The notes under the pieces: generated by a model
Told to the model about the DNA's origin: nothing
The model's database searches: none
Seen by the model: only the letters and a program-made list of their open reading frames with translations
Translations under genes and position numbers: made by a program
Assembly (NCBI GenBank): GCA_963681505.1
Contig: OY811975.1
Coordinates: 5,509,490 to 5,573,489, forward strand
Length of the DNA stretch: 64,000 bases
Reading direction: 5' to 3'
Origin: Eunapius fragilis
Lineage: Eukaryota; Porifera; Demospongiae; Spongillida; Spongillidae
Part shown: positions 13,124-43,843 of the stretch, piece after piece
How positions within the stretch are numbered: the stretch's first letter is position 1
Layout: every line of letters begins with the position of its first letter

Positions 13124-14189
13124 CTATCTTTTGAGCACTTGCACAGGAGCCATTGCACACTCTGTAGAATATTTACCACAGTGCCATTTTCCATCAGTTT
13201 TCAGACGTAAGCACACAAAACAGAACTCTTGCTTGCATGTGGGGCACTGCATGTGCTTGCACTTGTCGATGTGCTCAATAAGGGCGAAACACTTCGGGCA
13301 TGCTCTAATAGAAGGACATTTCATTTCGCAAATGGAAGTCTTCTTCAATGGTGCTGAAGCAAGCAGCTGGTTGATGGCCTCCATGCTACACTTGTGACCA
13401 GATACCCAGGAGGATGAGCACTGCCAACAGAAATCATAGACACCCTTTTTAGTGGGGGTGCATTGGGCACATCGTACAATTTTATCAGTGGGATTGACCC
13501 GCACACAAAATGAGCCGCATCCTGGGCACTGGCGAACAGTAGTGCCATAATTTATAAAATTCAGAGATATGGTTTTATTAACCAGGTTCATTTCTGTGGT
13601 AGTGAGGCCACACTTGCTGATGTAAGAGGTAGGCCATTCCTTATCGCACCCATTCATGTAGCAACGCACCTCCAACTTGTGATTATCCACGACCTCGCTC
13701 TTACAGTAATCAGCAAGACCATCTGGGTGAATGGCGTGTCCACAAGGCATGACAACGCATTCTGGGGTGGGGAAATCCATGAATGTTGCTATGCATGGCC
13801 CTTTGCTTGTTGGAATAGTTGGGTCTATTTTTCGTGTCATTGAAGCGCTACCTCCACGGAGTGAAAGATGGACGTCAATAGTTGATCCATGTCCAAGTGT
13901 GGGGTAATCCTTGAGGTATTTGTCACTGTCCAAATCTCTCCCTCCGTAATGGATCTGATACTCATTTGACCTGATTGCCTGTGTTATCACCTGCCTTAAG
14001 TAGCTCACGGGTATCTCCTATATACATGCAAGTATAATGGTACACATAAGGAAGTTACAACAAAGAGCTATTACACACAACAGTGCCACAGTTAATATGA
14101 CTTCATACCTCTGAATATTCCTCTTCCAGTCCAACTATGATTGTGCTTGACCCACAATTGATAAAAAGTGCCCAATCCTTGCCAGTCAT
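13124..14189 (-). CDS. Ubl-RBR E3 ubiquitin ligase-like protein, copy A (complete)
   Basis: Two exons are predicted: 14,109-14,189 and 13,124-14,017, joined in phase 0 over a 91-base intron (donor GAG|GTATGA, acceptor ATATAG|GAG), giving 324 residues. Residues 1-83 form a ubiquitin-like domain with YGGRDLDSDKYLKDYPTLGH in the position of ubiquitin's GKQLEDGRTLSDY, ending in LSLRGG. A RING1-like Cys/His set follows (C102, C114, C119-G-H121, H124, C132, C146, C151). The BRcat has CPGCGSFC (191-198), C210, C213, C224, C227, H235 and C237. The Rcat has CPKCFALIEHIDKCKHMQCP, with C280 at the position of the catalytic cysteine. RBR ligases pass ubiquitin from an E2 to this cysteine and then to substrate; that activity is inferred. 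The start at 14,189 is chosen because the second exon lacks an ATG at its head (GTG in this copy) and the first exon completes the Ubl fold. It is divergently paired with the Ubl gene at 14,705. Confidence 0.85.
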
Positions 14190-14704
14190 GTCTATCTATT
14201 CACTATTAAAGAAAGGAAAAAAGGGTAAACAACGATGTGGTTTAATGATTGTTGGCCTGTGGGCGGAGGAACGTGAAAGAAGTGTTGATGCTAGAATACA
14301 ATGACGTGGTACGTACTAGCTTCCAGGCCTGGCTACTGAACGTCGCAATGCGTATGAATTGCTTTGGTTATCAAGCTTTTATGAATATAACAATACTGTC
14401 AGAAAACGTTTGGAACTAACATATGGTCCAGAAATCTTTAGAAAACGCGGTATATATAGGCGATTCGTCTTCAACGTACCTCTGGTAAGTCCGTAGTATA
14501 CCCAACGGGTACAAATTGTACGAATCACGTGAAGCGCTGCCTTAAACCTTCTATGGAAATAATGCCCGGGTATTTCCATGGGAAACTCCCCACCCAGATA
14601 TAGATAATATAAGGCCGCGGTTGCAGTTACTAACAATAGTTATATATACAGTTACATGTCTACTAGTTAAATTCCAAGTTGAAACCATCGAGCAGGACAT
14701 CATT
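14190..14704. promoter_or_regulatory. Bidirectional promoter between RBR-A and Ubl-A
   Basis: This 515-base gap separates two divergent start codons. It contains a CACGTG E-box at 14,526-14,531 and a TATA-like TTATATATAC at about 14,639, some 60 bases before the Ubl start. Both are kept in copy B (CACGTG at 29,263-29,268, TTATATAC at about 29,600). It has no convincing coding content. Confidence 0.5.
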
Positions 14705-17700
14705 ATGAGCACAGATAACGAATGGAACATCATTGCTAACCTGGGAAATAAGACGCGAATCATCAACTTCCAGGATCCTCCTGCAGTTAGTTGAATCCCC
14801 ACTGCCTATACTAATCATTGTACATGTCTGTGCGGTCAGGGTGGGATTGTATAGATGCGTAGTGAGCGGCATCTAGCCTTTTAGGTAGGTGTGTGCTTGT
14901 CGATCAGGTCACAGGTGTGCGCATTTATTCGGTTGCACGTAGATATGTGTGTGTGTGTGTGTGGGTGGGGGGGGGGGGGGTTGTGTGCGCGCGCGCGCTG
15001 TGGCTTCAGTTAGGCTTGCTGTAGTCTCGCAAGCCAGACGCGTGTACATGTAGGCCTACTTCGACACGCAAAGTGGAGTGGGGACGGGAAAACAACTTAA
15101 CACTGCAAATTGTTTCCCTTGTCGATGCATTTATAATATTCTATTATCTATGGTCGAACGAAGTGCATCTGGCTTGCGAGAGAATAAGGTTTGCTGCATC
15201 TCTCTATGGCATGTCATTCTCATTAGGCCATTCAAAATTGATGAGTTGTTTCTCGATCGAAATTTTTTACTTCGTCAAAGAATTTGGATAATTAGATCAC
15301 TGGACGAAATAGCATTGTTACCAAGTAGTCTCGCAAGCCAGACGTACTTCGACGTACTGTAGGGCCAAAAATTTTCGGATGGCAAATATTTTCGGATATT
15401 CGCATATTCAAATTGCGCTAAAAAATATCAGAATCCCAGCATTCGAAAATAGTTTCGCGTCCACTTTAATTCGATTTCTACCGCTTTTGTGAAGCTGCAT
15501 ATTACATCGTACATACACATCCTAAAATATCTTATAGCTTATTACGGTACTAAACTACCATTACGCAAAAATTGTATACGGTACTTCTGAAATGCGAAAC
15601 TATTTGCCATGCGAAAATTTTTGGCCCTACAGTACCATACCATGACGTGGACTGGGGACTAGCACGACTGGTACTACTCGTGCTAGTCCCCAGTCCACGT
15701 CATAGTACGGTGCGTCGAAGTACGTGAGGCTTGCGAGACTAGTAGTCGTAGCAGTTTATAAAGGTGGGGCAGTTATTACTGAACATTTTATCGGAGTTGC
15801 CTAATGAATAGATTATCCTGATTATGTTCAATGAACTTAATCAGAGATAATCTATGTATTAGCTAGGCCACTCTGCAAACTTAATCAGAGATAATAGATA
15901 TATTAGGCCACTCCGATAAAATGTTTAGTTTCTAGTTGAATGTCTTCTTCGAAAGTGATTCGGGCTGGCTGGCTATTATTAGTGTTATTTATATGGGAAC
16001 CTTGCAGCGAAACAGTATTTTTTTAAAACTTGATAAGTCCTCTACAACTTCTTTCTTATGCACTGGAAATTATAGTCATCGCATCATGGAGTTATAGAGT
16101 GCATATATAGACTGTGACCAGAATTTTTATTTAAATTCCACGCATCAACTCTGATGCTCGTTCAGAGGAAAATTTTGTAATATTGCATTAGCACTAGGTC
16201 CATTTTCACTGCAACGATCAATACACATATACACTCAAAGCACTCTAATCAACTGCATGTTTAATAATATACAGCTGTCTAATTAAGATCCAGATGCAGA
16301 TGGCGATTGCAGACTAGTGAATTGAATTTTGTTTCTAAATAACACACCATACGTACGTCGTATCATAGTATCTGCCACTCGAACAGTCTGATCCAATCTG
16401 TTCAGTCTCTAAATTAACGCACACATTTAGCAACATACCCTTTTTTAAACAATGGATACTAATGCTGAGAAATAATGGTTTGCATACCACCATTGATACC
16501 AAACTCGCACCTTCAGAGCTATGCATGCTCCAGCTTATGTATTTGTGTGCAATTACTCAGTGGTGATTTATCAATAAATTAAATTAAAAGTAATAGCAGC
16601 AGCAGCATTCATGTTTTCCTTTTCAATGTTGGGCTTAGCTATTATCACTAGTCAATATCCCAATCTTTGCTACCTGTGTTTCAGTAAAGGTCATTTCTAT
16701 TGATGGGTTGCTTGATTCTCCAATGACCCAAAAGTTACTGTCCATGAAAATAGAGAGAACAAACAGTTTCAGTTGCTGTTTGATGCTTCCTCTATTCCAA
16801 ACAGGGCTCGGCTAATGTCTGCTTTATTAAACCTTGCAGCTTCTTGGTTATCAGTTATACCATCCCCTGGTCTTAACTTCCACCTTGACAAGGCTAAATT
16901 CCAGACAGTCTTAAAATGGTGGCTAGGTATTGACATGTTTGGTGGTAGTGGTGCCCATCTTGTTCAACCCAGTCATTAGATCCTTTAGGTCACCATGCCC
17001 TAACATGTTGATATAAAGTGGACACCACAACCAACTCAGAAAATACCTTTTTTGAATCCTGCAGACCGGCTGGTGTTGGTGGACAAATGGAGGTAGGAAA
17101 TGGTTTGGGGCACGATGAACGATGCACCAACCAGCTGATGCTCTAGTGCCAAATTAGGATCTGGAAAAACCTGCGGCTTTTGATTTCACTGTTGCATCAC
17201 CGCTTAATCAAAGTATCCTCACTGAAGTGAGTGTGACAGCGGGATCATCAGCCCGGGTTTCTCAATAAAGGAAACATGCCTCCAATGATGTTAAGTGCTC
17301 AGAGCTAGGTTGGTCATGCATACCATTGGCTGTTGAGACTTACAGCTGAAGTTCGCCTTCATCTTTCATGACTGGCTGCTAGACTAAATTGCTCCAAATC
17401 TCACACCACCTGAACTCTGTATGGTAGGCTCAACTTGGTCCAAGTCAGAGCAAATGCAAGGGCACTATTCCGACCAAGCATATGGCATCGTCTCTGACAT
17501 CCCAGCTTAGCGTTGGGTTGACATTCAGCTGTTCCATTATGTGTATTTTGTGTGTGCTCATTTACTCATTAGTTAAAAAAATAGTCCGATGCAAGAGCCA
17601 TTCTATCTAGGTCCGATCTTGTCCTAGATCGGGCGGTTGACCGAGAATGATCTAGGTTCTTTGTACCATGTTTGTAATATGTTATGACGAACGATAGTTT

Positions 17701-20700
17701 AAAAATAATAATGATAAGGATAAATGAACATGCACATTATACAGTTAAGTCCTATATACATTCTAATCAATTATTCTTGAGTGCAATAGCAGTCATTGTG
17801 CGTTGCAATTGGCTCGCATCAAAGTAAGACTAAGCCTAAGGCGTTGTGGCCTAGAGGGTTTAAAGCATGGGATGGACAGAAAGGGCAAAAAGAGATTGTC
17901 AGAACAGCAATGCCCAACCACCACTTTACAGCAGCCTGGAACTCAGCTGGGTCAACATGGAGATTGAGCCCAACAGTCGTGCTTTGTTACTCAAGTAATT
18001 CCCTAGATGATGGTCTTCAATTTCAACAGATAGGGATTTCTGGTACTGCACAACCTTTAGGTGATCCAATACTAATGCGTCATCAGGGGAGACAAGTTCA
18101 TTAAATTGTTTGGCAGATGCTACTAGGTGCTTGCAAGATGAGTTACTGGAAGCATTCAAGGATGAAATGTAGGCAGCTGATGAATGTTTAGCCAGACTAC
18201 GGAACCCAAGGCTCCCTCTGCATAGACTGAGTTGGGCTTGTTGCCATGCAACATTAAGTGAGTCTATGGCAGTGCATTCTGAAAAACAGCGACGGACATC
18301 CTCATCAAAGAATTGCAATGCCTCACCATTAAAAGGCTGGGGGGATTGATCCAGCAAGGTGTGCCAACTTGTAAAAGCCACTACACTACCGAAGTAAGAG
18401 GAGAGCCACCTGAGGATCAACTGTATCTGCATTTACCAACTGCTAAAGCAATTTGGAAGCAATCGCTTGTTTTTGTGCAACAAACATGAATCTCCAATTG
18501 GAGCCCCAAGAATCTCGAAGTTCAGAACACTGGACTTTTTCATAAGAGATGAAAATCAGTGAGCTGAGGTCACCCAAGCATAACAATTCACACTTTAACT
18601 TCATTCACAAAATGACCAGCTCTTGGATGATGGAAAGGACTCTTAAATAAATAATAATCAGATTAATAATTGGCCATGTCAGTGTAGTCTTCCTCACCGT
18701 CACGTTAGATAAAATAAAATAATAATAACTCCTTTCCCATCCTACTAAAAAACAACTGTCTTCCAAGCTTCATGACTATCTGTTTAACCAATGGCTGAAC
18801 CTGTTTCCATTAGCAGACAGGGTCAATCTATTATCCATATCATCACCTCGTGCTTCAGCTTGGCTGTAACCCCACCTGAGACCTTTGGACTTCACCTGGC
18901 TTCACCAGCCCTCTTCTTCAGGACCTTCCTCCACCTCACACCAAGCCTCTTCTTCACGACCTTCCTCCTACTCCTCACACCAGGCTTCTTCAGGACTTTC
19001 AACCATCAGGAAGCAATGCATCGTTGAAGGTTGCCTTGCATATATAGCTTCATCCATGTGGCACAACCACATGACCCTCCATGCCAAAGGTGCCCTCCCT
19101 GGGATTGTACTATCAAAGTGGCTGAGTGAGCACAATATGTTTGTTTGCCCTAGCTGCTCCCAGCTGGTTGCAAACTCCCGACATGCTTCTCACCTGCACC
19201 AATGCTCCCAAAGGTGCATTACTCTGATCTCCCTACAGCAGCCTGTTTGGTTCAGATGCTAGTCAAGACCTTCCTACATTTGACCAGGTGGGCCAATGGA
19301 ACCACCCTACTTTGCGCTACATTCCAGCTAAAACCAGGCCACCATTTGAACCCTCTCATCATCCTTAAGAGATATAACATGCTTCCGGAGTGTGAGTGTG
19401 TTCTCCCTCCTTGAGGCCTAAAGGAATCACAAACCACACACATCAATAGAGTCTCCAGTGGTGGATCCAGGAAATATAGCCGGGGGTTCACACGAATGCA
19501 TTAAATAACCAGCGATTACCAGCTAGGGAGTATGAGGGAGTGCTGTAAGGTCTCTGAGCAGGGTCTGGGGCTCTGCCCCAGACGTTTTGCTAGTTGTCAA
19601 TATTGCTCTCAAAATCATAAATTTGGAATGGAATTTTATTGTATACTTTATTTTGCATGTTTCAATACTACCTTTTCATATCAGGCAGCATGGCTACGAA
19701 TTTCATATGCACAATCCATGAGTGATTAAGTAATAAGATACATAGTTTATCTTAATTAATCTCAAGCGGATAAGATATCATTAGTCTGGGACATTTCATT
19801 GCAAACATATATTGATCAATATCCATGATAATTATATGAATCATCATCAAGGATACACTAATAGACCTATCACATTCACAGCTAGTGATTTGCACGATAT
19901 ATACATATGATCCTACGTAGCACATGATGACATGAATGTTGGGTAAAATGCTCACATTTGTCATCTTTAATGTTCACTACTGTTTCAGTACATTGAAACG
20001 TGGGTCAAAAAGACTTACGCCCAGAAATATTGAAATGGCCGCGTGTGCTTAGCAATGAACTATTGCAATCGAACAACATTGGAATGTGCGCTACTCTTTT
20101 TGAACACAACACTTGGTAGTATATTTTGACGCTGTTTTATGGTTATAAAACTTGTACTCTATCCGACGCCACAAGTATCATGATCGTAGCTTAAGCCACT
20201 CGAACACTATGCGACTTAAAACATATACACTTTTAGTGGTACGTCATTACTCATTGGGTTGTGTAAGTTTTCTGGCTCCAACGGCGCATAGCTTTGTATT
20301 GTACATGGAATGAACTTGATAATTTTTTTGTTTTCGAAGCGGCTCTGTTATAAGTTTTAAAGTTAACAGTTCGTGCACGAGACCTAGCAACTAGGTCAAA
20401 ACGATTGATCACTACAATACTACATTATAGTTGTGCACGGAATGTTTTACACAACAGACACTGGCATTGTAGAAAATGAAAGATTCTAATGTCCATGCAT
20501 GCTTGACATGGTCTCACATACTAGCCCTGACCCCATGTACAACCAGCTCTACCCCCACCACCCAACCCTGTCCCCATTCACAACCAGCCCTGTTCCCATG
20601 CACAACCAGCCCTGTTCCCGTGCACAACAGCCCTGTTCCCGTGCACAACCAGCCCTGTTCCCGTGCACAACCAGCCCTACCCTCAGAACCAATCCTGGGC

Positions 20701-21256
20701 CCATGCACAACCATGCAGCCCTGACTGACCCCATGCACGTACGGCTCCACAACCATCCCTGGCCCCACAACCAGCTCTGGTCCCACAACCAGCTCTGGCA
20801 CCACAACCAGCTCTGGCTCCACAACCAGTCCTGGCTCCACAACCAGCACTGGCCCCACAACCAGCTCTGGCTCCACAACCAGCCCTGGCTCCACAACCAG
20901 CTCACAACCAGCCCTGGCTCCACAACCAGCTCTGGCTCCACAACCAGCCCTGGCTCCACAACCAGCTCACAACCAGCCCTGGCTCCACAACCAGCTCTGG
21001 CTCCACAATCAGCTCTGGCTCCACAACCAGCTCTGGCTCCACAACCAGCCCTGGCTCCACAACCAGCCCTGGCCCCACAACCAACCCTGGCTCCACAACT
21101 AGCTCTGGGTCCTCAACCAGATGCACGCAATCATGCAGCTAGCTCCATGCACAACCAGCTAGCTCTCAGTGGCTCCAAGACCATTTCTTAAAGATGATTT
21201 ATTTAACGAATAATTGTGTTTTTCCCCTGTATTCCTGTGCATGCATATAGCTGTGA

Positions 21257-21309
<53 letters not shown>

Positions 21310-24145
21310 AGGACAAACGTATGTAATTTCACTTGATGGATATGCCTTAATTCGTAAAACTTCTCACATGCATGTATAGTGTGGGGGGCGGGGGCATGTC
21401 ACCAAGTCAGGTCGAAGCGGGAGGTACAAAGTACAGCCAACTGTGAGCTTTGAACAATCGCATAGACTTCGAATGGAATAATGTGCATTTAAAATACCAA
21501 GAAAAGCATTTTCCTCAAGACAGCGCTGTGTCGTATCCCAGTCTACCGTACAATATTCGTACTATTGCTGCTCAAAAAACTAGTAAGATTATAACAGAGC
21601 CACTTTGAAATGTACCTTGATGTATAGACCAATGTCACCACGTAATGTCGGATGGTCTGGAAAGTCTCGAAGAACCTCCAGACGCGAACACATTGAATTA
21701 CACTAATAGTAGTCTCCCACACCAATTGCACACACGTACAATAGAAACACTTCCCCGCAAAGTAAAAAAAACTTTCTGCATTCTGAATTAGGTACGTATG
21801 TGTACAGAAAGGGTCTGTCTACATGCCTAGACCGTTCATGTTGCTGCATTTCATTCTGATTGTGCAAACAGTGGCTCCAAACAATGCACTAAGATAATGA
21901 GTTTAATGACGCCATTATTATGGTATGTTTAGCATTGTTCTAATTATATCCTTTTTGACCCACTCGGAACAATAGTGTGTTTCAAGGGCTCAGCTGGGTG
22001 GGACACAAGTACTGTATTTTTCCACTTTAGATACCACACGAAGCAGCACATAGGACTGCATGGCGGTATGCAACAGAATCAGCAAAACTTTGCATAAACT
22101 TATTGAACATGCAGTGACTGACTCTTCATGCACAAGGGTAATGCCTGGTACAAGATAAGAGCACTGACTTTTTACTTTTTCTGGGATGAGAACCGTGTTC
22201 CAAGTTTAGTATGATGATCAATAAAGGGTACAGAAAGATTATAATTCTTTCTACACTATTCCTCAGGAGATTCAGCAGGAACGTTATATATTAGTAAAAA
22301 AGCAACAATATTTATGTATGCATGGTCCTTCAGGCACAAGCAACAAATGGCCAAGATTTGCTCCTTGTAAGTGTCATAACAACAGTAGTCATGCAAAAGA
22401 GTGTCTTTATCTATGCAACCTTTGCGAACATTTAGAAACTGTGAAGCAAATGCAGAGATAATTACCTTTGGCGTAGCAACTATTTTATTGACTTTTGAAA
22501 TTAAACTTATTTGGGTGAGGATCAAAATGTTCATTGTAGATCATTTTTAAATAGGAAGGATGGGGACCTTTTTTTTCTTTTTGAAAAAAATGGTCCCCAG
22601 GACCAAAATTACCGGGACCAACATTTTGATGACAGGGCTAAGGCAAGGATAATTAAATTCATGAATTTCAAAGGAGGTTTTGTTGGCGGACCTTTTATCA
22701 GCCAGGGGGGGGGGGGGAGAAGCTCCCCAGACCCAGAAGGTCGGTATAATATAGTTGCATGTCAGCAGCTTGCCATTTGTAACATTACGATGATGTCATG
22801 CGAACCAGCCTTCATTTCACGTTGTTATGCACGGGACTGAAGGGTCATCGATATCAAAATAAACTGAAGGATCATCGATATCAAAATTAATAAAGTTGTA
22901 CAAATGCTGGAACTGCGGAGCTCGAGACCCCCCCTTTCACAGTCACTGCTTTGGTACCCTGCTAGAGTGCAATTTAGGCATCGAATAGATCACTATCTAG
23001 TCCAGAAGGTTTGTAAGGTGGTGTGGAGCTGCAAAAGCAATATTCTGTTGACCATCAGAAATGCTATTTGTGCCAATCGGATGGCAAAATACACAAATAA
23101 CTCCCAACCACGTTGTCATAGCAACGATCTATCGCATGCTATTACTGTATGCATGAAACTTCTTTTCTTCTGCCAGAACTACTGACTCCTATTTATTATA
23201 AGTTCTCTCCAGCGAGAAAGAGCGTATAAAATTTGAATAGCCTTACTTGGAATGGCATTATTGCATGGGTGGGTATTTATTGTTAGCAGTACTAGCCGGT
23301 GGGACCGGCTGTGCTGAGCTTTGAGAATATGCATAGTCAGCTACTGACCGGTTGGAACAAGTATTAATAGCGCAAATGCCTGCTTAACATTGGAGCCATT
23401 ACCTCATTATTAATGCACATACATGTAGGGCCAATAATTTAGGAATACTACAAATTTTTGAATGATGCATTTGGTAGCAGCTGTACATAGTGTGCTCGGG
23501 AACATGAATCCATTAAAAAGTAGCTGTGTAATGTACCTACATCATTATATCACTAACAATGATAAATCTGCAGGGACGTTGTTAGAGAATGTTAGTGTTC
23601 CAAATTTTTACCACAGTTCTGAAATGGTTAATTGACTCTAAGAGCCATGCACATGTGTATGTTTTACATATCTGCACGATTGCTACCTTATATGAACATT
23701 ATTCATGGTCAAAAATATTTAATATCATTCTGGAGGCAAGTCAATGGAGGGATTTACAGAAATGAGATATTTCTGGAATGTGTTCTCTATGTGCAAGAGT
23801 ATGAACTGATCGATACTGATATATTATTATAAGACAGTGATAAAACTGTTAGACTAATGAAATTGGCTACAATTTTCCTGGTTCAGTCATAATTTGTACT
23901 GTTCATTATTTCTTTTGCCAATAATTGAACAGAAACTGACTGTTTGTGACTTGAAAGCAAAGTTAGCAGAGGCTGGGTGCACCGGTGACTATTGGCTTCA
24001 GTCTGGAGGGAAAACATTGCAAGATGAAAAATATTTGAGTGAATATGGTATTGGCTCCAACTCTGATGTGTTTGTATTTTATCGAGTGCACGGAGGTTGC
24101 CAGAAATCTAACTATATACCACGAATGAAAGTGGACTCCAATTAA
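14705..24145 (+). CDS. Small ubiquitin-like protein with C-terminal Gly-Gly and tail, copy A
   Basis: Exon 1 is 14,705-14,785 (27 codons, MSTDNEWNIIANLGNKTRII onward, donor GCA|GTTAGT). Exon 2 is 23,933-24,145 (acceptor AATTGAACAG, phase 0, 70 codons plus stop), giving 97 residues after an intron of about 9.1 kb. Exon 2 supplies the rest of a ubiquitin fold: LTVCDLKAKLAEAG matches the helix, SGGKTLQDEKYLSEYGIGSN matches ubiquitin's AGKQLEDGRTLSDYNIQ, and VFVFYRVHGG matches LRLRGG at residues 73-82. A 15-residue tail (CQKSNYIPR onward) follows the Gly-Gly, as in SUMO or ubiquitin precursors. Exon 1 has the same length and phase as exon 1 of the divergent RBR gene, which supports both the pairing and the intron position. 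The 9-kb intron is full of transposon remains. The link between the two exons is inferred; an unseen intermediate exon is possible. Confidence 0.6.
14946..14998. repeat. (TG)n, poly-G and alternating CG tract
   Basis: A TG run, a G run and GCGCGCGCGC follow one another. Copy B has a much longer TG tract and the same CG block at 29,913-29,990, so this site expanded or contracted after the duplication. Confidence 0.9.
15328..15739. mobile_element. 412-bp nested palindromic element, present in copy A only
   Basis: Outer ends GTCTCGCAAGCC...GGCTTGCGAGAC are flanked by TA on both sides (15,326-15,327 and 15,740-15,741). Copy B reads straight through the equivalent point near 30,340, so B is the empty site. 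Inside is a second TA-flanked element at 15,357-15,632 with CTGTAGGGCCAAAAATTTTC ends, then a perfect hairpin at about 15,645-15,702. TA duplications point to Tc1/mariner-type mobilisation. There is no coding capacity. Confidence 0.75.
15645..15702. repeat. Near-perfect hairpin inside the nested element
   Basis: The left arm TGACGTGGACTGGGGACTAG continues to CACGA, and the same sequence follows in reverse complement after a loop of about 10 bases. Confidence 0.85.
15784..15923. repeat. Imperfect hairpin element shared by both copies
   Basis: AACATTTTATCGGAGTTGCC at the left is matched by GGCCACTCCGATAAAATGTT at the right. A shorter version lies in copy B at about 30,398-30,515, so it predates the duplication. 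Confidence 0.65.
15924..16680. other. Intron sequence, no feature recognised
   Basis: AT-rich sequence closely matched in copy B (about 30,516-31,370), where small indels separate the copies. No coding signal is seen. Confidence 0.5.
16690..17700 (+). pseudogene. Non-LTR retroelement fragment, 3' part of the RT polyprotein
   Basis: Decayed coding text reads RLMSALLNLAASWLSVIPSP and FQTVLKWWLGIDMFGG, then a nuclease-like stretch with KPAAFDFTV, with stops and frame changes throughout. I recognise this layout (Cys/His patch, then an AFDVTV-type block) as the C-terminal part of invertebrate reverse-transcriptase polyproteins also present at 31,380-32,330. It ends near AT-rich sequence and meets an oppositely oriented fragment tail to tail. 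Confidence 0.65.
17790..18650 (-). pseudogene. Non-LTR retroelement fragment, RT C-terminal region, minus strand
   Basis: The minus-strand frame 18,432-17,926 is open for 168 codons and contains FDEDVRRCFSECTAIDSLNV, AWQQAQLSLCRGSLGFRSLA and VSPDDALVLDHL. This is the region following the RT thumb in the same family as at 32,510-34,870 (-) and 35,425-36,880 (+). It is truncated at both ends and lacks the catalytic YxDD block, so it is a relic. Confidence 0.7.
18720..19260 (+). pseudogene. Retroelement fragments: RT tail and N-terminal zinc-finger region
   Basis: 18,720-18,880 matches 36,240-36,400 (LSSKLHDYLFN, LSISSPRASA). From 18,885 an open frame of 125 codons starts with a Ser/Pro-rich linker (repeated SHQASSS). 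It reads CIVEGCLAYIASSMWHNHMT and then FVCPSCSQLVANSRHASHLH, two Cys/His clusters like the N-terminal zinc fingers of this retroelement family. The order (tail before head) shows two joined pieces. ATCGT at 19,020-19,024 is the empty site for the hAT element of copy B. Confidence 0.65.
19261..19970. other. Shared intron sequence with a lone hAT-like terminus
   Basis: This matches 40,925-41,667 in copy B. CAGTGGTGGATCCAGG at 19,456 (CAGTGGCGGATCCAGG at 41,126 in B) resembles the left TIR of the hAT element at 36,883, but no matching right end was found. A 'ctctgccccag' block typical of such non-autonomous hAT pieces follows. Confidence 0.45.
20566..21130. repeat. Minisatellite, 18-bp unit CTGGCTCCACAACCAGCT and variants
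   Basis: About 600 bases of CCACAACCAG-based units. The left third uses a variant with CCCTGTTCCCGTGCACAA. Because the main unit is a multiple of three, long open frames exist in several frames on both strands (for example Pro-Gln-Pro-Ala-Leu-Ala and Val-Val-Glu-Pro repeats). These are not evidence of genes. Confidence 0.9.
21258..21306. repeat. (TG)n microsatellite
   Basis: A perfect TG run inside the CACTA-like element. Confidence 0.95.
22267..22461 (+). CDS. Candidate Cys/His-rich exon, kept in both copies
   Basis: After the acceptor ATTCCTCAG a frame of 64 codons reads EIQQERYILV and then PCKCHNNSSHAKECLYLCNL followed by CEHLETV, ending in TAA. The Cys/His spacing (C-x-C-H, H-x3-C, C-x2-C) is zinc-binding-like. 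Copy B (41,966-42,154) keeps the Cys/His part in an open frame although indels alter the upstream residues. It lies inside the long intron of the Ubl gene and could be an alternative last exon or a piece of a transposon gene. The function is unknown. Confidence 0.28.
   Translation, partial: EIQQERYILVKKQQYLCMHGPSGTSNKWPRFAPCKCHNNSSHAKECLYLCNLCEHLETVKQMQR
22500..23930. other. Intron sequence, no gene recognised
   Basis: This matches copy B at 42,190-43,650. It includes a short G run at about 22,708-22,720 and an imperfect direct repeat (GGGTCATCGATATCAAAATA / GGATCATCGATATCAAAATT) near 22,830-22,885. Confidence 0.5.
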
Positions 24146-27913: not shown

Positions 27914-28901
27914 TCACTGGTGGTGAGGTTTCTGTCGAGTAGATCGACGAAGGTGACCAGGGCCATACTCACTACCAGTTGGCCATCTGGGATTTGGGCG
28001 CATTGCACGTGGCTTAACTGAGGGCAGCTCAGAGGTGTAGGGTGTCTTTTCATTAACAGGAATAGATGGTTCAAGCAGCTGGTTGATGGCCTCCATGCTA
28101 CACTTGTGACCAGCTACCCAGGAGGATGAGCACTGCCAACAGAAATCATAGACACCCTTTTTAGTGGTGGTGCATTGGGCACATCGTACAATTTTATCAG
28201 TGGGATTGACCCGCACACAAAATGAGCCGCATCCTGGGCACTGGCGAACAGTAGTGCCATAATTTATAAAATTCAGAGATATGGTTTTATTAACCAGGTT
28301 CATTTCTGTGGTAGTGAGGCCACACTTGCTGATGTAAGAGGTAGGCCATTCCTTATCGCACCCATTCATGTAGCAACGCACCTCCAACTTGTGATTATCC
28401 ACGACCTCGCTCTTACAGTAATCAGCAAGACCATCTGGGTGGATGGCGTGCCCACAAGGCATGACAACGCATTCTGGAGTGGGGAAATCCATGAATGTTG
28501 CTATGCATGGCCCTTTGCTTGTTGGAATAGTTGGGTCTATTTTTCGTGTTATTGAAGCGCTACCTCCACGGAGTGAAAGATGGACGTCAATAGTTGATCC
28601 ATGACCAAGTGTGGGGTAATCCTTTAGCAATTTGTCACTGTCCAAATCTCTCCCTCCATAATGCAGCTGATACTCATTAGTCCTGATTGCCTGTGTTATC
28701 ACCTGCTTCAAGTAGCTCATGGGTGTCTCCTATATACATGCAAGTATAATGGTACACATAGGGAAGTTACAACGAAGAGCTATTACACACAACAGTGCCA
28801 CAGTTATTATGACTTCAGACCTCTGAATATTCCTCTTCCAGTCCAACTATGATTGTGTTTGACCCACAATTGATAAAAAGTGCCCAACCCTTGCCAGTCA
28901 T
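27914..28901 (-). CDS. Ubl-RBR protein, copy B, Rcat replaced by a retroelement tail
   Basis: Exons 28,821-28,901 and 27,914-28,729 (phase 0, donor GAG|GTCTGA) give 298 residues. The Ubl domain (ending LSLRGG), RING1 and BRcat are nearly identical to copy A up to NQLL (residue 246). From there copy A continues into its Rcat. This copy instead reads EPSIPVNEKTPYTSELPSVK onward to a basic end (LRRSTRQKPHHQ) and stops about 33 bases before the polypurine tract and LTR. That tail resembles the C-terminal end of a Ty3/Gypsy-like pol. The catalytic-cysteine domain is therefore missing. The protein could at most bind an E2 or ubiquitin, unless an alternative exon exists. It may be a dominant-negative form, or simply a pseudogene with an intact frame. 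It is divergent from Ubl-B. Confidence 0.7.
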
Positions 28902-29646: not shown

Positions 29647-29912
29647 ATGAGCACAGATAACGAATGGAACATCATTGCTAACCTGGGAAATAAGACTCGA
29701 ATCATCAGCTTTCAGGATCCTCCTGCAGTTAGTTAAATCGATCCCCACCGCCTCTGTAACTATCATTGTACATGTTTGTGCGGTCAGGGTGGGATTGTAT
29801 AGATGTTCAGTGAGTGTGCATCTAGCCTTTTAGGTAGGTGTTATGTGCTTGTCGGTCAGGTCACTGGCGAGTGCGTGCACACAGGTGTGCGCATTCGGTA
29901 GCACGTGTATGT

Positions 29913-35900: not shown

Positions 35901-38900
35901 TTGCCCTGGTCCTTCATCTCTGTGGTGGGTTTTGTAAACTGGTGCACCTGGCTCATTCAACATGTACCACCATCACTCTCATCAAAGGCTTTCAGTTTTT
36001 TTGATGACGACATCCGTAGGGCTTATAAACAGTGCTTGCAATTGGGTATCAATACCTTCAACATTGCCTGGGAACAAGCCCAGCTCACAGGAGGCCTTGG
36101 ACTGTGGTCATTGTCTCACCTATCATCTGCAGCTTTCATCCTCCATTTTTTCATCTGGCTTTGGTTCTCTATCATCCACCACCTGTCTTAAGCTATAGAT
36201 GACTTCAATTTGGTTTTTCCTGATGAGGCCATCACTGTGGAGGTTGTTCTCCTTTCCCATCCTACTCATAAACAACTGTCTTCCAAGCTTGATGACTATC
36301 TGTTTAACCATTTGCTGAACCTGTTTCCATTAGCAGACAAGGCCAATCTATTATCCATATCATCACCTCATGCTTCAGCTTGGATGTCTGTAACCCCATC
36401 TGAGAGCTTTGGACTTCCCTCCTGTGTTCCAGTTTGCCATCAAGTGGTGGCTTGGCCTCAACACTCCGGAGGGCTCCCAATGTGCTCTATGCCCCATTAG
36501 TGCACTCGATCACCTCGGCCACCATGCAGTGACCTGAAAGTATGGTAGAGATGTGGTCTCCTGCCACAACAGGGCTAGGGACATCCTGGTGGAAACCTGT
36601 CCTCGAGCACACATAGGGGTCCACCACTTCAACAGCCACCATCGCCACCTAAATCTCTTCAACAGGAGCTACATTTCCCCCTGGTTCACCAAACAAGCTA
36701 CTATCCAGTTCAATTACAAGGTTTCATTACCCTCCATATCACACCAGGCCTTTCCTCCCTACAACTCACACCTCAGGACCCTCCTTCACCTTACACCAGG
36801 CTTCTTCTTCAGGATCTTCCTCCTCCACCTCACACCGGGCTTCTACTTCAGGACTTTCAACCATCAGGAAGCAATGCATCGTCAGAGGTGGATACAGGGG
36901 GGGGGGTCCAGGGTGTCCGGACACCCCCCTTCCAGCCGATCATGAATAAATTAACGCGACCATATCTTAACCACTTCTGGTTATCATGGCAACAAAGCGG
37001 TCAGCAACGATACTCACGTTTTTCTCAAAACGAGTGAAGCAAACAGGTAATCATTTAGCACGAGAGTTCGCCGTATTGCCAGTGAAGGTGGAAGTATAGA
37101 AATAATGACTATTTTATTTTAATTGGCTAGCTACCATGGTTACAGCAGACCAGCCACTTGTAGAAGCTGAAGGCAGTTCCGGTTCGGGGTATGCACATGC
37201 AGCAGATAATTTTAGAGGTTCGTCGCAGCATCAAACATCGGATGTTGGCGGTACGATATGGTGTTGATTTTTTCTTCGCTGTACAATAGTTTTAAATGTA
37301 TACATGTATACCATGCAGAATCACACAGTTGTCTCCAGAGTGCCTGTTGCTCCACATCTCGTTGCAGTGACTCCCTAGGCAAGTTTGTAGAAATATAGAG
37401 TTAGTAAAACTCTAATTCTTTCTGTATAGATTGTGCTCCAGAGATGTCATTGCACCACTCCTTTGGTAATTCTGGCAGCCAATTGACGGCACACTCTGAA
37501 ATCAGTACACCTGTCACACCAGGTACATTAAATGTGTTTAAAGTGCACAGTATCATTTGTAGTCGGCAATGATGTGCATATATCTACACAACCATTACAA
37601 CTGAACAACAGGTTATAGTTATCGTTGCAGTATAATTACTGAAGTCATCACTTTATCTAGTTACATAATTTAAAGGCAACTGATGTTTGATATTAATTAT
37701 AACTGTTGCAGCTTATGAAGATACTGACACCCTTGTCACGTATTCACATGACATTGGTGAAGTGGCCAGTGGTACGATACAGTCCACGTCACTTTCAGCT
37801 CAAGAAAAGGCCAGTTTTTTGAAAAATCATTTTGTTCCAGGCAAAGATTACAAATTTTCCACACAAATCTTGCCAAAAGAAGGTGGCAAAAAGCAGAAGA
37901 TGCTCACGTTTCAAAATTCTTGGCTTGAGCAGCACAAATGGCTAGTATATAGCCCATCGCAACAAGGAGGGTTTTGCAAGTATTGTGTGCTGTTTCCTCC
38001 CACAACTTCTCAAATCAAAACAGGTGTTTTGGTATCCATTCCAATGAAGAAGTTCAATAAAGCAACAGGGAAGTGTGGTTATTTAGCTATGCATGAACAA
38101 CTTGAATATCATAAAGATGCGGTAGTAAGGAGTATGTCCTTATGTGAAAGTTTGGAACACCCAGAATCAAGCTTACCTTATAAAATTTCAAGTCTGAATA
38201 AGGAGTTGTATGACAAAAATTTCAGTATTTTAAAATCAATAGTAAAGGCAATAATATTTTGTGGAAAACAAAATGTACCTTTACGTGGTCATCGAGATGA
38301 TAGCACATCTACAACAGTTAATAAAGGAAATTTCTTGGCTCTTTTGCACCTCATGGCTGAAACTGATACTGTATTAAAGGACCATCTTGAACAAGGAAAA
38401 CGAAATGCTAAATGCACATCAAAAACAACACAAAATGAGATCATATCAATTATTGCTGATTATATTCGAGAACGTACAACAAAATCATTACAGCTTTCAA
38501 CCAGTGTTTTTTCAATCATAGCTGATGAAGTTACTGGGAAGTATGACAATAAAGAAATATTATCTATTTGTGTTCGTTTTATTGAGGGGGAGAATATTAG
38601 TGAAGTGTTCTTGGATTTTGTGGAGTTAATAAGAACAACAGGAGCACACATTGCAGAAGCTATTATGCTAAGCCTGGCCCAAAACAAGGTCGACATACTC
38701 AAATGCAGAGGACAAGCTTATGATGGTGCAGCTGCTATGTCTTCTGAAAGAGTTGGAGTGCAGGCAAGAATAAAAGTTGTGTGCCCACTAGCTTTATATA
38801 CCCATTGCAGAAGCCATGTTCTTAACCTTAGCATAGCCTCTGCTTGCAAGGTTCCTCAAATAAGTTCTATGGTAGATGTTATTAATGAAACATTCAAGTT

Positions 38901-41900
38901 TTTCAATAATTCTCCCAAGCGACAAAGATTTTTTGAACATATTTTGGATGCTTTTGAATCAGATTGTACCAAAAGCAAGCTTCTTGGACTTTGTCGGACT
39001 CGTTGGGTGGAGCGGCATACATGTTATGAGACATTTTATGAACTGTATGTCTATATTTGCTGCTGCTTAGAAGCTATAATTAATCCTTCTGTGTATCTAG
39101 ATAAAAATTTGGACCAAAATTGGGATTGGGATTCTGATTCAAAAGTAAAGGCACAAGGTCTCTTGCATTCCTTGAAGTCAACGCAAAACATTGTGTCATT
39201 TTTGGTTGCAAAGAATGCTCTAGAATTAATTAGACCTATTGCTGTTAAACTACAGAAGAAAGACCAAGACATTGTCGCAGCATCGAATATGATTGATGAA
39301 ACAATAAGTAACATTAAGGATTTAAGAGAGAATATTGAAACAGAGTTTTGTGATTGGTTTTCAGATGTTAAAAGAATTGTGGAAGCTGTTGGTAGTGAAA
39401 TTAGTGTACCACGAATTGCTGGGAAACAGACTTATCGTGCAAATGCCACAACAGATGGTGCTACACCTGAAGGTTATTACCGTGTGAATGTTTCAGTCCC
39501 ATTTTTAGATCATTTACATCAAGAAATGAGTAGCAGATTTGACCATGAGAACAGAGTAGGTAATGAATTGTTTAATTTAGTTCCAAGTATAATTATTACA
39601 CTAAGTAATTTACAGCCATTAGTGGAAGGTTTGCTCTTTTGGAAACTTGACATGCCTTCACCTTCTTCACTTTTATGTGAAATTAAGTTGTGGCAAAAGC
39701 ACTGGACAAAAAGATCTGAAGTTTCTGATATCCCTGAAGATCTGTCTACAAGTTTTGTCAGCTGTGATGCAGACGTGTATCCAAATATCATAGTACTATT
39801 AAAAATAGGGTGTACTCTTCCTGTATCTAGCTGTGAAGCTGAAAGGTCTTTCTCTGGCTACAGAAGAGTAAAAAGTTATATTCGAAGTTCAATGACTACA
39901 GAGCGACTTGCCGGTCTAACTCTAATGCACCTGCATAATGACATTGAAATTAATGTTGACCTAATTTGCCAACAGTATATTAGTAAATATAACAGAAGAA
40001 TGTTTAAATCTTGTATTTTGTTCGAGTAAGCCATGTTGCATTTCATTTGTACATGTCATTGCATTTCATTTGTACATGTCATGTCATTCATATATATTGC
40101 TGTGTTAAAAAAAGTTAGTTTCCCGGATTTACATGCATTGCATGACACATGATACAATAACGTATTTAGCATTGTATAGTACGGGTTTTGAATAGATACA
40201 GGATGCTTGCATGCGTACACATGTATCATTGGACCTGACGCAATAATATAAATTTTCTAGAAACGAGCGCCGAAGTTGACGCGTACAAGTGAAATGTACG
40301 CGTAATTATATAGTCTCAAGTGCGTATGAAAGAAGTTGTGGTAGAGGTCACTTATCTGATATAGACCCTTTTTCGCCGATATTTAAATGAAGTACTTTGT
40401 AACCCGGCCTGATTATAGTTTAAATGCGACTGAGCTACGTACATCATGCACACAAATCACGATTTATGACCATTTCAGATGCATGCATCTATACTGTGCT
40501 AAGCATGGGTTTTTGGAAGCTAATTAATGATGCGAAAAGCGTTGGCTCCTGGGGCTCCGCCCCAGACCCCGATGGGGGAGCTTACAACGCTCCCCATACC
40601 CCCTAGCTGCTATTGTACCCCTCCCCTCATTAATAATTCATTATGGACACCCCCCTCATTCAATTCCTGTATCCGCCCCTGATCATTGAGGGTTGCCCTG
40701 TGCATATAGCTCCATCCATGTGGCACAACCACATGACCCTCCATGCCAAAGGTGCCCTCCCTGGGATTGTACTGTCAAAGTGGCTGAGTGAGCACAATAT
40801 GCTTGTTTGCCCTAGCTGCTCCCAGCTGGTTGCAAACTCCCGACATGCTTCTCACCTGCACCAATGCTCCCAGAGGTGCATTACTCTGGTCTCCCTACAG
40901 CAGCCTGTTCGGTTCAGATGCTAGTCAAGACCTTCCTACATTTGGCCAGGTGTGACAATGGATCCACCCTACTTTACGCTACATTCCAGCTTAAACCAGG
41001 CCATCATTTGCAAGAACCCTCTCATCATCCTTAAGAGATATCCTACAAAAGAACATGCTTCTGGAGTATGTTCTCCCCTCCTTGAGGCCTAAGGAATCAC
41101 AAACCACACACATTAATAGAGTCTCCAGTGGCGGATCCAGGAAATATAGCCGGGGGGGAGGGGGGGGGGGGGGGGGGTTACACGAATGCATGAAATAACC
41201 AGCGGTTGCCAGGTAGGGAGTATGGGGGAGCGCTGTAAGCTCCCAGAGCAGGGTCTGGGGCTCTGCCCCAGAAGTTTTGCTAGTTGTCAATATTGCTCTC
41301 AAAATCATAAATTTGGAATGGAATTTTATTGTATACTTTATCATGCACGTTTCAATACTACCTTTTCTTATCAGGCAGCATGGCTACGAATTTCATATGC
41401 ACAATCCATGAGTGATTAAGTAATAAGATACATTTATCTTAATTAATCTCAAACGGATAAGATATCATTAGTCTGGGACATTTCATTGCAAAAATATCAA
41501 TGATGTTATTGATCAATGTCCATGATAATTAAATGGATCATCATCAAGGAGACACTAATAGATCTATCGCATTCACAGCTAGTGACTTGCAAGATATATT
41601 CAAATGATCCTATGTAGCACATGATGACATGAATGTTGGTGAATATGGTCACATTTGTCATCTTTAATGTTTCAAGGGCTCAGCTGGGTGGGACACAAGT
41701 ACTGTATTTTTCCACTTTAGATACCATGCAACAGTGCATGTAGCAGCACATAAGACTGCATGGTGATGTACAACAGAATCAGCAACACTTTGCATAAACT
41801 TATTGAACATGCAGTGACTGACTCTTCATGCACAAGGGCAATGCCTGGTACAAGATAGAGGGTACTGACTGATTGTTTTTTCTAGGATGAGAACCGTGTT

Positions 41901-43843
41901 TCAAGTTCAATATGATGATCAATAAAGTACAGAAAGATTATAATTCTTTCTATTATATTCCTCAGGAGATTCAGCAGGAATGTTATATATTAGTAGATAA
42001 AACAACAATATATGTATATGCATGGTCCTTCAGACACAAGCAACAAATGGTTGCTCCAAGTAAGTGTCATAACAACAATAGTCATGCAAAAGAGTGTCTT
42101 TATCTATGCAACCTTTGTGAACATTTAGAAACTGTGACGCATATGCAGAGATAATTATCTTTGGCGTAGCAACTATTTTATTGATCTTTTGAAATTAAAC
42201 TTATTTGGGTGAGGATCAAAATGTTCATTGTAGATCATTTTTAAATGGGAAGGATGGGAGACCAAAATTTCCAGTGGGGACCTTTTTTTTCTTTGAAAAA
42301 AAAATGGTCCCCAGGATCAAAATTACCGGGACCAACATTCTGTTGACAGGTCTAAAAGCAAGGATTATTAAATTCATGAATTTCAAAGGAGGTTTTGTTG
42401 GCCAGACCTTTAGTCAGCCAGGGGGGAGGGAGAAGCTCCCCAGACCCAGAAGGTCGGTATAATATTAATCTGTATAGTTGCATGTAGCAGCTAGCCGTTT
42501 GCTACATTACGATGACGTCATGTGAACCAGCCTTCATTTCACGTTGTCATGCACGGGACTGAAGGGTCATCGATATCAAACTAAACTGAAGGACCATCGA
42601 TATCAAAAATAATAAAGTTGTACAAATGCTGGAACTGCGGGGCTTGTGACCCCCCCTTTCACAGACACTGCTTTGGTACCCTGCTAGAGTGTAATTTAGG
42701 CATCAAATAGATCACTATCTTGTCAGAAGGTTTGTAAGGTGGTGTGGAGCTGCAAAGGCAATACTCTGTTGACTGTCAGAAATGCTATTTGTGCCAGTCG
42801 GATGACAAATGACTCCCAACCATGTTGTCAAGGCAACGATCTATCGCATGCTATTACTGTATGCATGTAACTTCTTTTCGTCTGCCAGAACTACTGACCC
42901 CAATTAATTATAAGTTCTCCCCAGCGAGAAAGTGCATATAAATTTTGAATAGCCTTGCTTGGAATGGCATTATTGCATGGGTGGGTATTTATTGTTAGAA
43001 CTACAATCCGGTAGGGCCAGCTGTGCTGAGCTTTGAGAATATGCATAGTCAGCTACTGACTGACCAGTTGTACATGTATTCATAGCGCAAATGCCAGCTT
43101 AACATTGGAGCCATTACCTCATTATTAATGCACATACATGTAGGGCCAATAATTTAGGAATAGTACAAATTTCGGAATGATGCGTTTGGTAGCAGCTGTA
43201 CATAGTGTGCTTGGGAACATGAATCCATTAAAAAGTAACTGTGTAATGTACCTACATCATTATATCACTAACAATGGTAAATCTGCAAGGACGTTGTTAG
43301 AGAATTTTAGTGTTCCAAATTTTTACTACAGTTCTGAAATGGTTAATTGACTCTACATAACCATGCACATGTGTATGTATTTTCATATCTGCACAATTGT
43401 TACCTTATATGAACATTATTCATGGTCAAAAATATTTAATATCATTCTGGAGGCAAGTCAATGTAGGGATTTAAGGAAATGAGATATTTCTGGAATGTGT
43501 TCTCTATGTGCAAGAGTATGAACTGATCAATACTGTTATTATATTTTTAAGACAGTGATATAACTGTTAGACTAATGAAATTGACTACAATTTTCCTGGT
43601 TCACTCATAATTTGTACTGTTCATTATTTTCTTTTGCCAATAATTGAACAGAAACTGACTGTTTGTGACTTGAAAGCAAAGTTAGCAGAGGCTGGGTGCA
43701 CCGGTGACTATTGGCTACAGTCTGGAGGGAAATCATTGCAAGATGAAAAATATTTGAGTGAATATGTTATTGGTTCCAACTCTGATGTGTTTGTATTTTA
43801 TCGAGTGCACGGAGGTTGCCAGAAATCTAACTATATACCATAA
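29647..43843 (+). CDS. Small ubiquitin-like protein with C-terminal Gly-Gly, copy B
   Basis: Exon 1 is 29,647-29,727 (27 codons, donor GCA|GTTAGT) and exon 2 is 43,652-43,843 (acceptor AATTGAACAG, phase 0), giving 90 residues. It differs from copy A by few substitutions (for example YGIGSN to YVIGSN, GKTLQ to GKSLQ). A CGA-to-TAA difference shortens the tail after Gly-Gly to CQKSNYIP. Both splice sites and the frame are intact although the intron is about 14 kb and now contains an intact hAT element and several retroelement pieces. As for copy A, joining the two exons is inferred from matching phase, fold and gene order. Confidence 0.55.
29913..29990. repeat. (TG)n microsatellite with CGCG tail
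   Basis: A TG run of about 60 bases then CGCGCGCGCG, orthologous in position to 14,946-14,998. Confidence 0.95.
31370..32330 (+). pseudogene. Non-LTR retroelement fragment, 3' part (copy B)
   Basis: Homologous to 16,690-17,700. Readable segments include PNRAQLMPALSNLAASWLSV, FQTVLKWWLGIDMFGG, a Cys pair (RCPSCS) and KPAAFDFTVASLLNQS. Stops and frame changes break it, and it ends in SDLVLDRADD. Confidence 0.65.
32510..34870 (-). pseudogene. Non-LTR retroelement with RT domain, minus strand, decayed
   Basis: The minus-strand pieces in order are: an N-terminal part of the RT region (34,651-34,265), an RT block EDFVMMKIDMRNALKLVSP (near 33,760), the palm/thumb part with ILGAPIG-like text near 33,290, then AWQQAQLSLCRGGLGLRNLA-like text (33,015 downward) and the start of the C-terminal region (NTAQLLSALSPHAAALLSVI at 32,737). 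Many frameshifts and stops make it non-functional. It faces the plus-strand fragment at 31,370-32,330 tail to tail. The part 33,425-34,870 is absent from copy A. Confidence 0.7.
35145..35394. mobile_element. 250-bp MITE with GGGAYRGT-type TIRs
   Basis: The left end GGGATGGTGTCCAGC and the right end, reversed, GGGACAGTTTCCAGC each continue into AATCACCCTT.TGG. Both sides are flanked by ATAT. The terminal GGGACAGTyTCC is shared with the 6-kb palindromic element at 49,713-55,719, suggesting one transposase family. Confidence 0.75.
35425..36880 (+). pseudogene. Non-LTR retroelement RT fragment, plus strand, interrupted by hAT
   Basis: The RT blocks GDTLGPLLFSLVLNILVESI and HAWYMDDGVLASP (YxDD catalytic core) are readable, followed by ILGVTIGDLDCCSSF, FFDDDIRRAYKQC and a Cys/His patch (SALDHLGHHAVT) with stops between. 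The block order is that of one element read 5' to 3'. From about 36,700 the Ser/Pro-rich linker of the N-terminal zinc-finger region appears, so pieces are joined out of order. The hAT element at 36,883 splits that region; its other half resumes at 40,687. Confidence 0.7.
36883..40681 (+). mobile_element. 3.8-kb hAT DNA transposon, apparently complete
   Basis: The TIRs are CAGAGGTGGATACAGG and, reversed, CAGGGGCGGATACAGG. Flanks are ATCGT (36,878-36,882) and ATCAT (40,682-40,686). The orthologous uninterrupted site in copy A is a single ATCGT at 19,020-19,024. A 5-bp duplication is shorter than the usual 8 bp and characterises only some hAT groups. The element encodes a four-exon transposase and shows no internal decay, so it is the youngest-looking autonomous element in the window. 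Confidence 0.9.
37136..40029 (+). CDS. hAT transposase (DUF4371 / ZMYM1-like), four exons
   Basis: The exons are 37,136-37,250, 37,319-37,378, 37,430-37,522 and 37,712-40,029. All three introns are phase 1. The second intron has a GC donor (CTAG|GCAAGT). The product is 861 residues with no internal stop. A TTF-type zinc-finger region lies around residues 150-220 (HKWLVYSPSQQGGFCKYCVL). The catalytic core includes IIADEVTGKYDNKE (Asp near 361), KCRGQAYDGAAAMSS (Asp near 427), YTHCRSHVLNL and CRTRWVERH. The C-terminal hAT dimerisation region has SSCEAERSFSGYRRVKSYIR. It acts as a cut-and-paste transposase in the nucleus. The last exon alone is a long open frame; the three small exons are supported by phase and splice signals. 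The upstream ATG at 37,136 was chosen because it starts the in-phase chain. Confidence 0.88.
40643..41667 (+). pseudogene. Retroelement N-terminal zinc-finger remnant and shared intron sequence
   Basis: 40,687-40,924 reads GCPVHIAPSMWHNHMTLHAK and LVCPSCSQLVANSRHASHLH, matching 19,025-19,260 of copy A. The rest matches 19,261-19,970 and contains a poly-G run (about 41,153-41,177) just after a hAT-like terminus at 41,126. Confidence 0.6.
41966..42154 (+). CDS. Candidate Cys/His-rich exon, copy B
   Basis: Counterpart of 22,267-22,461, with acceptor ATTCCTCAG and 62 codons. The segment KCHNNNSHAKECLYLCNLCE is conserved, while upstream residues differ through indels that keep the frame open. The function is unknown. 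Confidence 0.25.
   Translation, partial: EIQQECYILVDKTTIYVYAWSFRHKQQMVAPSKCHNNNSHAKECLYLCNLCEHLETVTHMQR
42190..43640. other. Intron sequence of Ubl-B, no gene recognised
   Basis: Closely follows 22,500-23,920 of copy A with scattered substitutions and small indels. Confidence 0.5.

Follow-up and report, generated by a model that had tools for sequence, protein, structure and literature searches.

Ligases of the RBR class that carry a ubiquitin-like (Ubl) domain, such as parkin and HOIL-1, are already known, and so are RBR ligases working with a Ubl modifier. In parkin, a RING0 lies between the Ubl and the RBR region, while in HOIL-1 an NZF takes that place, and neither Ubl is known to end in Gly-Gly. 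The predicted ligase described here likewise has an N-terminal Ubl on an RBR ligase but, unlike those of parkin and HOIL-1, this Ubl runs straight into RING1 and ends in Gly-Gly. According to passages of PMC11354881, dedicated modifier-ligase pairs are mainly known from vertebrate ISG15 and the bacterial Bil operons, and the RBR ligase HHARI is listed as an ISG15 ligase in a section of PMC9722776. We analysed a stretch of 64,000 nucleotides (the window) from the genome of the sponge Eunapius fragilis. It contains a head-to-head pair of predicted genes, one for a compact Ubl-RBR ligase and one for a free Ubl, both of which use a common Ubl module of two exons.

The gene pair in the window and its tandem copy

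The putative ligase gene is located on the minus strand. Its exon 1 (14109..14189), among the top four of 2786 frames with a held-out exon-1 profile, encodes the first strands of the Ubl (MTGKDWALFINCGSSTIIVGLEEEYSE) and ends at a phase-0 donor, GTATGA. A 91-bp GT-AG intron of phase 0, between 14109 and 14017, separates it from exon 2 (13124..14017, stop included), a 297-aa open frame with the rest of the Ubl up to Gly-Gly and all the remaining parts of a 324-aa protein in the order Ubl, linker, RING1, BRcat and Rcat. The free Ubl gene is on the plus strand. Its exon 1 (14705..14785) was matched by the held-out profile and has the phase-0 donor GTTAGT, and its intron (14786..23932) is 9147 bp long. 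Exon 2 (23933..24145, stop included) was the best of the 2786 frames with the held-out exon-2 profile (E 5.5e-7), has ubiquitins and ISG15 among its PDB matches, and encodes the Gly-Gly followed by the tail CQKSNYIPRMKVDSN. In both genes, a phase-0 GT-AG intron cuts the ubiquitin fold at the identical point. The two ATGs are 515 bp apart, and the stretch between them (14190..14704) is presumed, from its position only, to be a shared promoter region.

These predicted exon borders (14189-14109/14017-13124 on the minus strand and 14705-14785/23933-24145 on the plus strand) are the ones proposed in a previous sequence-only reading of this DNA, and homology shows them to be correct. The 515-base spacing and the stand-alone Ubl with Gly-Gly and a tail were also borne out by measurement, the Gly-Gly being residues 81-82 of a 97-aa protein, followed by 15 residues. 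The proposal that first exons have 27 codons and phase 0 holds for both genes of the window; as a family trait it does not, since exon 1 varies from 24 to 27 codons.

At 27.9-44 kb lies a second copy of the entire pair with unchanged orientation, a duplication absent from that reading. In ungapped comparison, non-coding sequence of the copies is 88-96% identical, and the 515 bp between the ATGs share 93.6% ungapped identity with the corresponding 745-bp stretch of copy 2. The copy 2 ligase consists of exon 1 (28821..28901, minus strand), whose donor is altered to GTCTGA, and exon 2 (27914..28729, minus strand), which retains the Ubl, RING1 and BRcat; from about 28072 downward, unrelated sequence replaces Rcat, and the catalytic domain is lost from the predicted protein. 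The copy 2 free Ubl is intact apart from a shortened tail. Its exon 1 (29647..29727, plus strand) was found as an exon-1 profile match, and in exon 2 (43652..43843, plus strand, stop included) a TGA shortens the tail to CQKSNYIP. Between the copies, the free Ubl differs at 4 of 57 silent sites and 3 of 213 replacing ones (Fisher p 0.04); the silent bias has p 0.055 for the ligase and, with rounded counts, p 0.009 for all shared coding sequence, and ligase exon 1 alone has two replacing and no silent changes.

Duplications and transposon-like sequence abound in the surrounding region. Within the copy 2 free Ubl gene, the long intron contains a transposase-like frame of 781 aa (37684-40029, plus strand) with DUF4371 and hAT dimerisation matches, which accounts in part for an intron length of 13.9 kb versus 9.1 kb in copy 1. 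A short-chain dehydrogenase gene was also found (58563-59408, plus strand; Pfam adh_short E 3.7e-37), and a similar frame starting at 62333 on the same strand, about 3.8 kb on, points to a further local duplication.

Held-out profiles were made from six exon 1s and six exon 2s located outside the window, one of the latter being ubiquitin, and were used to rank the 2786 frames of the window. The four exon 1s of the two copies occupied the first four positions (E 1.5e-4, 9.1e-4, 0.0017 and 0.025), the next frame being at 0.26; the four exon 2s also came first (E 5.5e-7 to 2.6e-6), with the next frame at 4.8. The weakest of the eight matches (E 0.025) was that of the first-copy free Ubl exon 1, because this exon sits inside a long frame. 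By these rankings, the predicted Ubl exons exceed chance expectation. The full exon-2 profile produced two matches below E 5 on the plus strand of the window, one following each exon 1, and the 9.1-kb join therefore has a single candidate before the next gene copy. With the Pfam 'ubiquitin' model, both the free Ubl (22.6 bits) and the ligase Ubl (14.5 bits) scored below the cut-off of 25.4 bits.

A profile of the three free Ubl sequences, including the one on contig C3 described below, aligned to ubiquitin over positions 10-82, across the exon junction, with a single-domain E of 3e-12 (6kna); a ubiquitin fold over the joined protein is thus predicted by sequence profile. The window free Ubl alone matched polyubiquitins and ISG15 in the PDB, mostly over exon 2 (starting at residue 26-30), and its single-domain scores for ubiquitin were weak; its best match other than polyubiquitins was ISG15 (E 1.2e-5). 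Gly-Gly is present in all three free Ubls and is followed by short, differing tails of 15, 8 and 14 residues. In alignments read by eye, the equivalent of Arg72 was kept together with Gly-Gly in the window and C3 free Ubls, and the Ile44 equivalent was present in the C3 protein and replaced by Gln in that of the window. Structure prediction, which the sequence-only reading had named as a check, was of little help: the model of the Ubl exon 2 alone had a pLDDT of 51 and its closest matches were ubiquitins and Ubls at E 0.19 or worse, with ubiquitin or Ubl entries among the Foldseek matches listed and none at E 0.001. The ligase exon 2 model (pLDDT 32) was left unused. Both models were shallow because their input was limited to the window reading frames, two rows each.

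Exon 2 of the ligase matched Pfam IBR and IBR_1 above the cut-offs, and the closest RBR protein in the PDB was ARIH2 (E 1.1e-6 with the single sequence and 3e-11 with a profile). The exon-2 part of its Ubl (13850..14017, minus strand), aligned with ubiquitin and the paralogues, ends in SLRGG; its nearest relative was ubiquitin itself, in a profile alignment running through Gly-Gly, and it has Ser at the equivalent of residue 72. Of the RING1-BRcat-Rcat series proposed before, BRcat and Rcat stand and RING1 is atypical, lacking the canonical CxxC at its first site. RING1 (13619..13795, minus strand) was delimited by eye from the ARIH2 alignment and the columns that are invariant in six paralogues. 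Its second site (C92, H94, C119, C124) aligns with that of ARIH2; the first site lacks the CxxC spacing, yet C75, C87 and C105 are invariant in the six paralogues. BRcat (13388..13528, minus strand) has a C6HC ligand set (C164, C167, C183, C186, C197, C200, H208 and C210), and all eight columns are invariant across the same six. In Rcat (13157..13318, minus strand), which aligns with the ARIH2 sequence GGCNHMQC, the predicted catalytic Cys (codon 13261-13259) is followed two residues on by His; these putative active-site residues, C253 and H255 in exon 2 numbering, are invariant in 6/6 aligned ligases. A His at this distance from the catalytic Cys is described for RBR catalysis in part of PMC11354881. 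About 18 residues separate Gly-Gly from the first Cys of RING1, which leaves no room for a RING0 or an NZF, and the ligase has neither the parkin layout (Ubl, RING0, RING1, BRcat, Rcat) nor that of HOIL-1 (Ubl, NZF, RBR).

Pairing across the genome and ancestry of the Ubl module

A genome search with the window ligase gave 19 matches, and the one on contig C3 was adjoined by a divergent Ubl frame. The two genes at this place (C3:14.044-14.046 Mb) are head to head, with ATGs 204 bp apart. The C3 ligase (L036 5175-5104 + 4881-4006, minus strand) has 316 aa by exon sum and the C3 free Ubl (L036 5380-5451 + 5513-5728, plus strand) has 96 aa. The intron of the latter is 61 bp long where the window free Ubl has 9.1 kb; the same exon join made over 61 bp supports the join across 9.1 kb. 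Window and C3 proteins are 27% identical for the free Ubls and 46% for ligase exon 2, so the C3 pair is no recent copy. The predicted head-to-head layout recurs, then, at an unlinked and strongly diverged locus, and two diverged pairs in one genome provide a ready natural replicate. When an exon-1 profile lacking the C3 genes was run against the C3 locus, the free Ubl exon 1 was found at E 3.7e-4 and the ligase exon 1 was third at E 0.42; the latter call is hence based on position, splice sites, phase and the window-inclusive profile.

Nine Ubl-RBR loci were examined (C5a and C5b in the window, C3, C13, C4a-d and a distant one, C2), the degraded C4 fragments at 10855, 10880 and 10991 kb being left out of the count. 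Three of them (C5a, C5b and C3), or two places apart from the tandem duplication, have a free Ubl in divergent orientation. Searches with tblastn and the exon profiles found no partner Ubl at C13, C4a-d or C2 in the upstream sequence scanned, which comprised about 12 kb for C13, 7.8, 6.6, 4.4 and 6.8 kb for C4a-d, and 5.2 kb for C2. With no partner found at six of nine loci, pairing is not obligatory. Gly-Gly closes the ubiquitin fold of the ligase at C5a, C5b, C3, C13, C4a, C4b and C2 (7/9), and KG replaces it in C4c and C4d; in C4a the reading frame changes inside the Ubl. In the distant C2 gene (L046:3758-4779, minus strand; G000:C2:12.75 Mb), the Ubl ends in MPGG and a Met occupies the position of the His that follows the catalytic Cys.

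Other matches in genome searches with either free Ubl were ubiquitins, other Ubls and ligase Ubls, as judged by place and identity. A Ubl-like gene fragment (L048:5170-5485, minus strand; G000:C3:4.507 Mb) with a seemingly similar exon border ends in RVRG and a stop, with no RBR within its 10 kb, and a near-perfect ubiquitin unit (L047:4987-5420, minus strand; G000:C3:14.138 Mb) is split by a stop-bearing stretch that is either an intron or the sign of a broken copy. An IBR search of the genome gave 42 matches, many of them RBR genes outside the Ubl-RBR group; clusters at G000:C3:1.495-1.638 Mb and C6:8.29-8.59 Mb are expanded RBR-type genes of this sort. A ubiquitin-family match at G000:C17:5577279 and IBR matches at 5588358, both on the plus strand and 11 kb apart, are perhaps parts of a single Ubl-RBR gene resembling parkin or HOIL-1. 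Pattern searches matched 209 times in viral contigs and 91 times in prokaryote genomes, and none of these matches was confirmed as a relative.

The head-to-head arrangement together with the common intron position and phase makes it very likely that the two predicted Ubl modules of the window share ancestry. The earlier suggestion that the pair arose from one ancestor by splitting or fusion therefore stands as to the shared Ubl ancestry and not as to the route, since the Ubl trees favour none. These trees (11 and 8 rows, about 80 residues) had no starred branch except that of the tandem copies, and the AU test rejected nothing: the two free Ubls constrained together gave p 0.188, and as for each free Ubl placed with the Ubl of its neighbouring ligase, the C5 pair grouped at 66/82 and the C3 constraint gave p 0.164. 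The RBR tree left C5, C3 and C13 unresolved. The Ubl trees are compatible with split, fusion, duplication or repeated origin alike. A free Ubl that is a truncated ligase was considered separately and rejected, no RBR remnant being found at E 1 in the two long introns or in the stretches that follow the three free Ubls.

Possible functions of the free Ubl

A free Ubl beside a Ubl-RBR ligase at two places in the genome suggests a tag with its dedicated tagging enzyme. The free Ubl would start as a precursor, its short tail would be trimmed after Gly-Gly by a deubiquitinase-type protease, and the exposed Gly-Gly would be activated and passed to the Rcat catalytic Cys of the neighbouring ligase or a paralogue. 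The ligase could then place the free Ubl on substrates, much as has been reported for HHARI and ISG15. Its own related Ubl may serve as an internal pseudo-modifier, which would keep the ligase shut or dock the free Ubl, and the common upstream region might keep both genes in step. We rank this reading, a tail-processed modifier handled by the neighbouring ligase, above the other three and give it a probability of roughly 0.42. The gene structures and held-out rankings, the C3 pair, the alignment of the free Ubl profile with ubiquitin, the retention of Gly-Gly and of the Arg72 equivalent (and, in C3, of the Ile44 equivalent), the short tails, the invariant Cys and His of Rcat, the silent-change bias and the HHARI precedent count for it. 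Counted against it are the missing Ile44 equivalent of the window free Ubl, the Ser at the equivalent of residue 72 in the window ligase Ubl, the KG of two C4 ligases, the six loci with no partner found, an atypical RING1 (the E2-recruiting part), a copy 2 in which the ligase is broken and the Ubl kept, the replacing changes in ligase exon 1 and the low-confidence structure models.

The free Ubl could instead be an unconjugated, trans-acting regulator that occupies the site of the ligase's own Ubl and opens or blocks the enzyme, which would transfer ordinary ubiquitin. Parkin is regulated by its own Ubl, which when phosphorylated also acts in trans, on a second parkin molecule, as passages of PMC11368401 and PMC3940038 describe; the free Ubl is moreover a paralogue of the ligase Ubl. 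We consider such a regulator rather unlikely, as it leaves unaccounted for the Gly-Gly and Arg72 equivalent kept in both free Ubls, and six of the nine loci have no partner that was found.

The pair might also be a by-product of duplication: either two Ubl exons would have been duplicated next to the ligase in inverted orientation or a ligase would have shed its RBR region, and the resulting small gene would have little or no function. The abundance of duplications and transposon-like sequence around the pair agrees with such an origin, as do the truncated copy 2 ligase, the frame change in the C4a Ubl and the weak joining of the window free and ligase Ubls in the trees (66/82). An open frame, splice sites and Gly-Gly are, however, retained at two loci whose free Ubls are only 27% identical, changes between the copies are biased towards silent ones (p 0.04), and the searches for an RBR remnant at E 1 downstream of the free Ubls and in the long introns were negative; this origin is accordingly judged unlikely. 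Least probable, at long odds, is that both proteins are cut at Gly-Gly, the ligase gene being a modifier-ligase fusion comparable to the ubiquitin-ribosomal protein genes and the free gene adding to the same pool. For this reading, Gly-Gly lies exactly where the ubiquitin fold ends in 7/9 ligase loci, and the Ubl profile follows ubiquitin through Gly-Gly; against it, C4c and C4d have KG, and the C5 ligase Ubl has Ser in place of the residue equivalent to Arg72.

A bolder reading can also be formulated, a lineage-specific, genome-encoded cassette of a free Ubl modifier and a ligase bearing its sister Ubl, which would have had a shared promoter since before C5 and C3 diverged and in which both Ubls would be processed at Gly-Gly. 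It would be a third route beside ubiquitin and NEDD8, with RBR ligases of its own, and it is very doubtful at present.

Comparison with known systems

In the open-access library to which the search was confined, we found neither a head-to-head Ubl/Ubl-RBR pair nor a Ubl that ends in Gly-Gly and leads directly into RING1. If an early animal has a modifier linked to a Ubl-RBR ligase, it becomes possible to test how modifiers come to have ligases of their own, and whether the Ubls found in RBR ligases were modifiers at first. We know of no modifier gene paired with ARIH2 or ARIH1 (HHARI), and the ISG15 gene is not, to our knowledge, paired with that of HHARI. These Ariadne-type ligases, with ARIH2 the closest RBR protein in the PDB by sequence, have the same RING1-BRcat-Rcat order and a catalytic Cys in Rcat; the window ligase differs from them in its atypical RING1, and they have no N-terminal Ubl but a UBA-like and an Ariadne domain (PMC3940038). 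The ISG15-HHARI system resembles the proposed one in that a Ubl modifier is handled by an RBR ligase (parts of PMC9722776). ISG15, which is described as vertebrate-only, has two Ubl units and differs in this from the window free Ubl. The fusions of ubiquitin with the ribosomal proteins eS31 and eL40 likewise join a Ubl ending in Gly-Gly to a zinc-binding protein; their partner is ribosomal, and the cleavage that is known for them is only possible in the predicted Ubl-RBR ligase.
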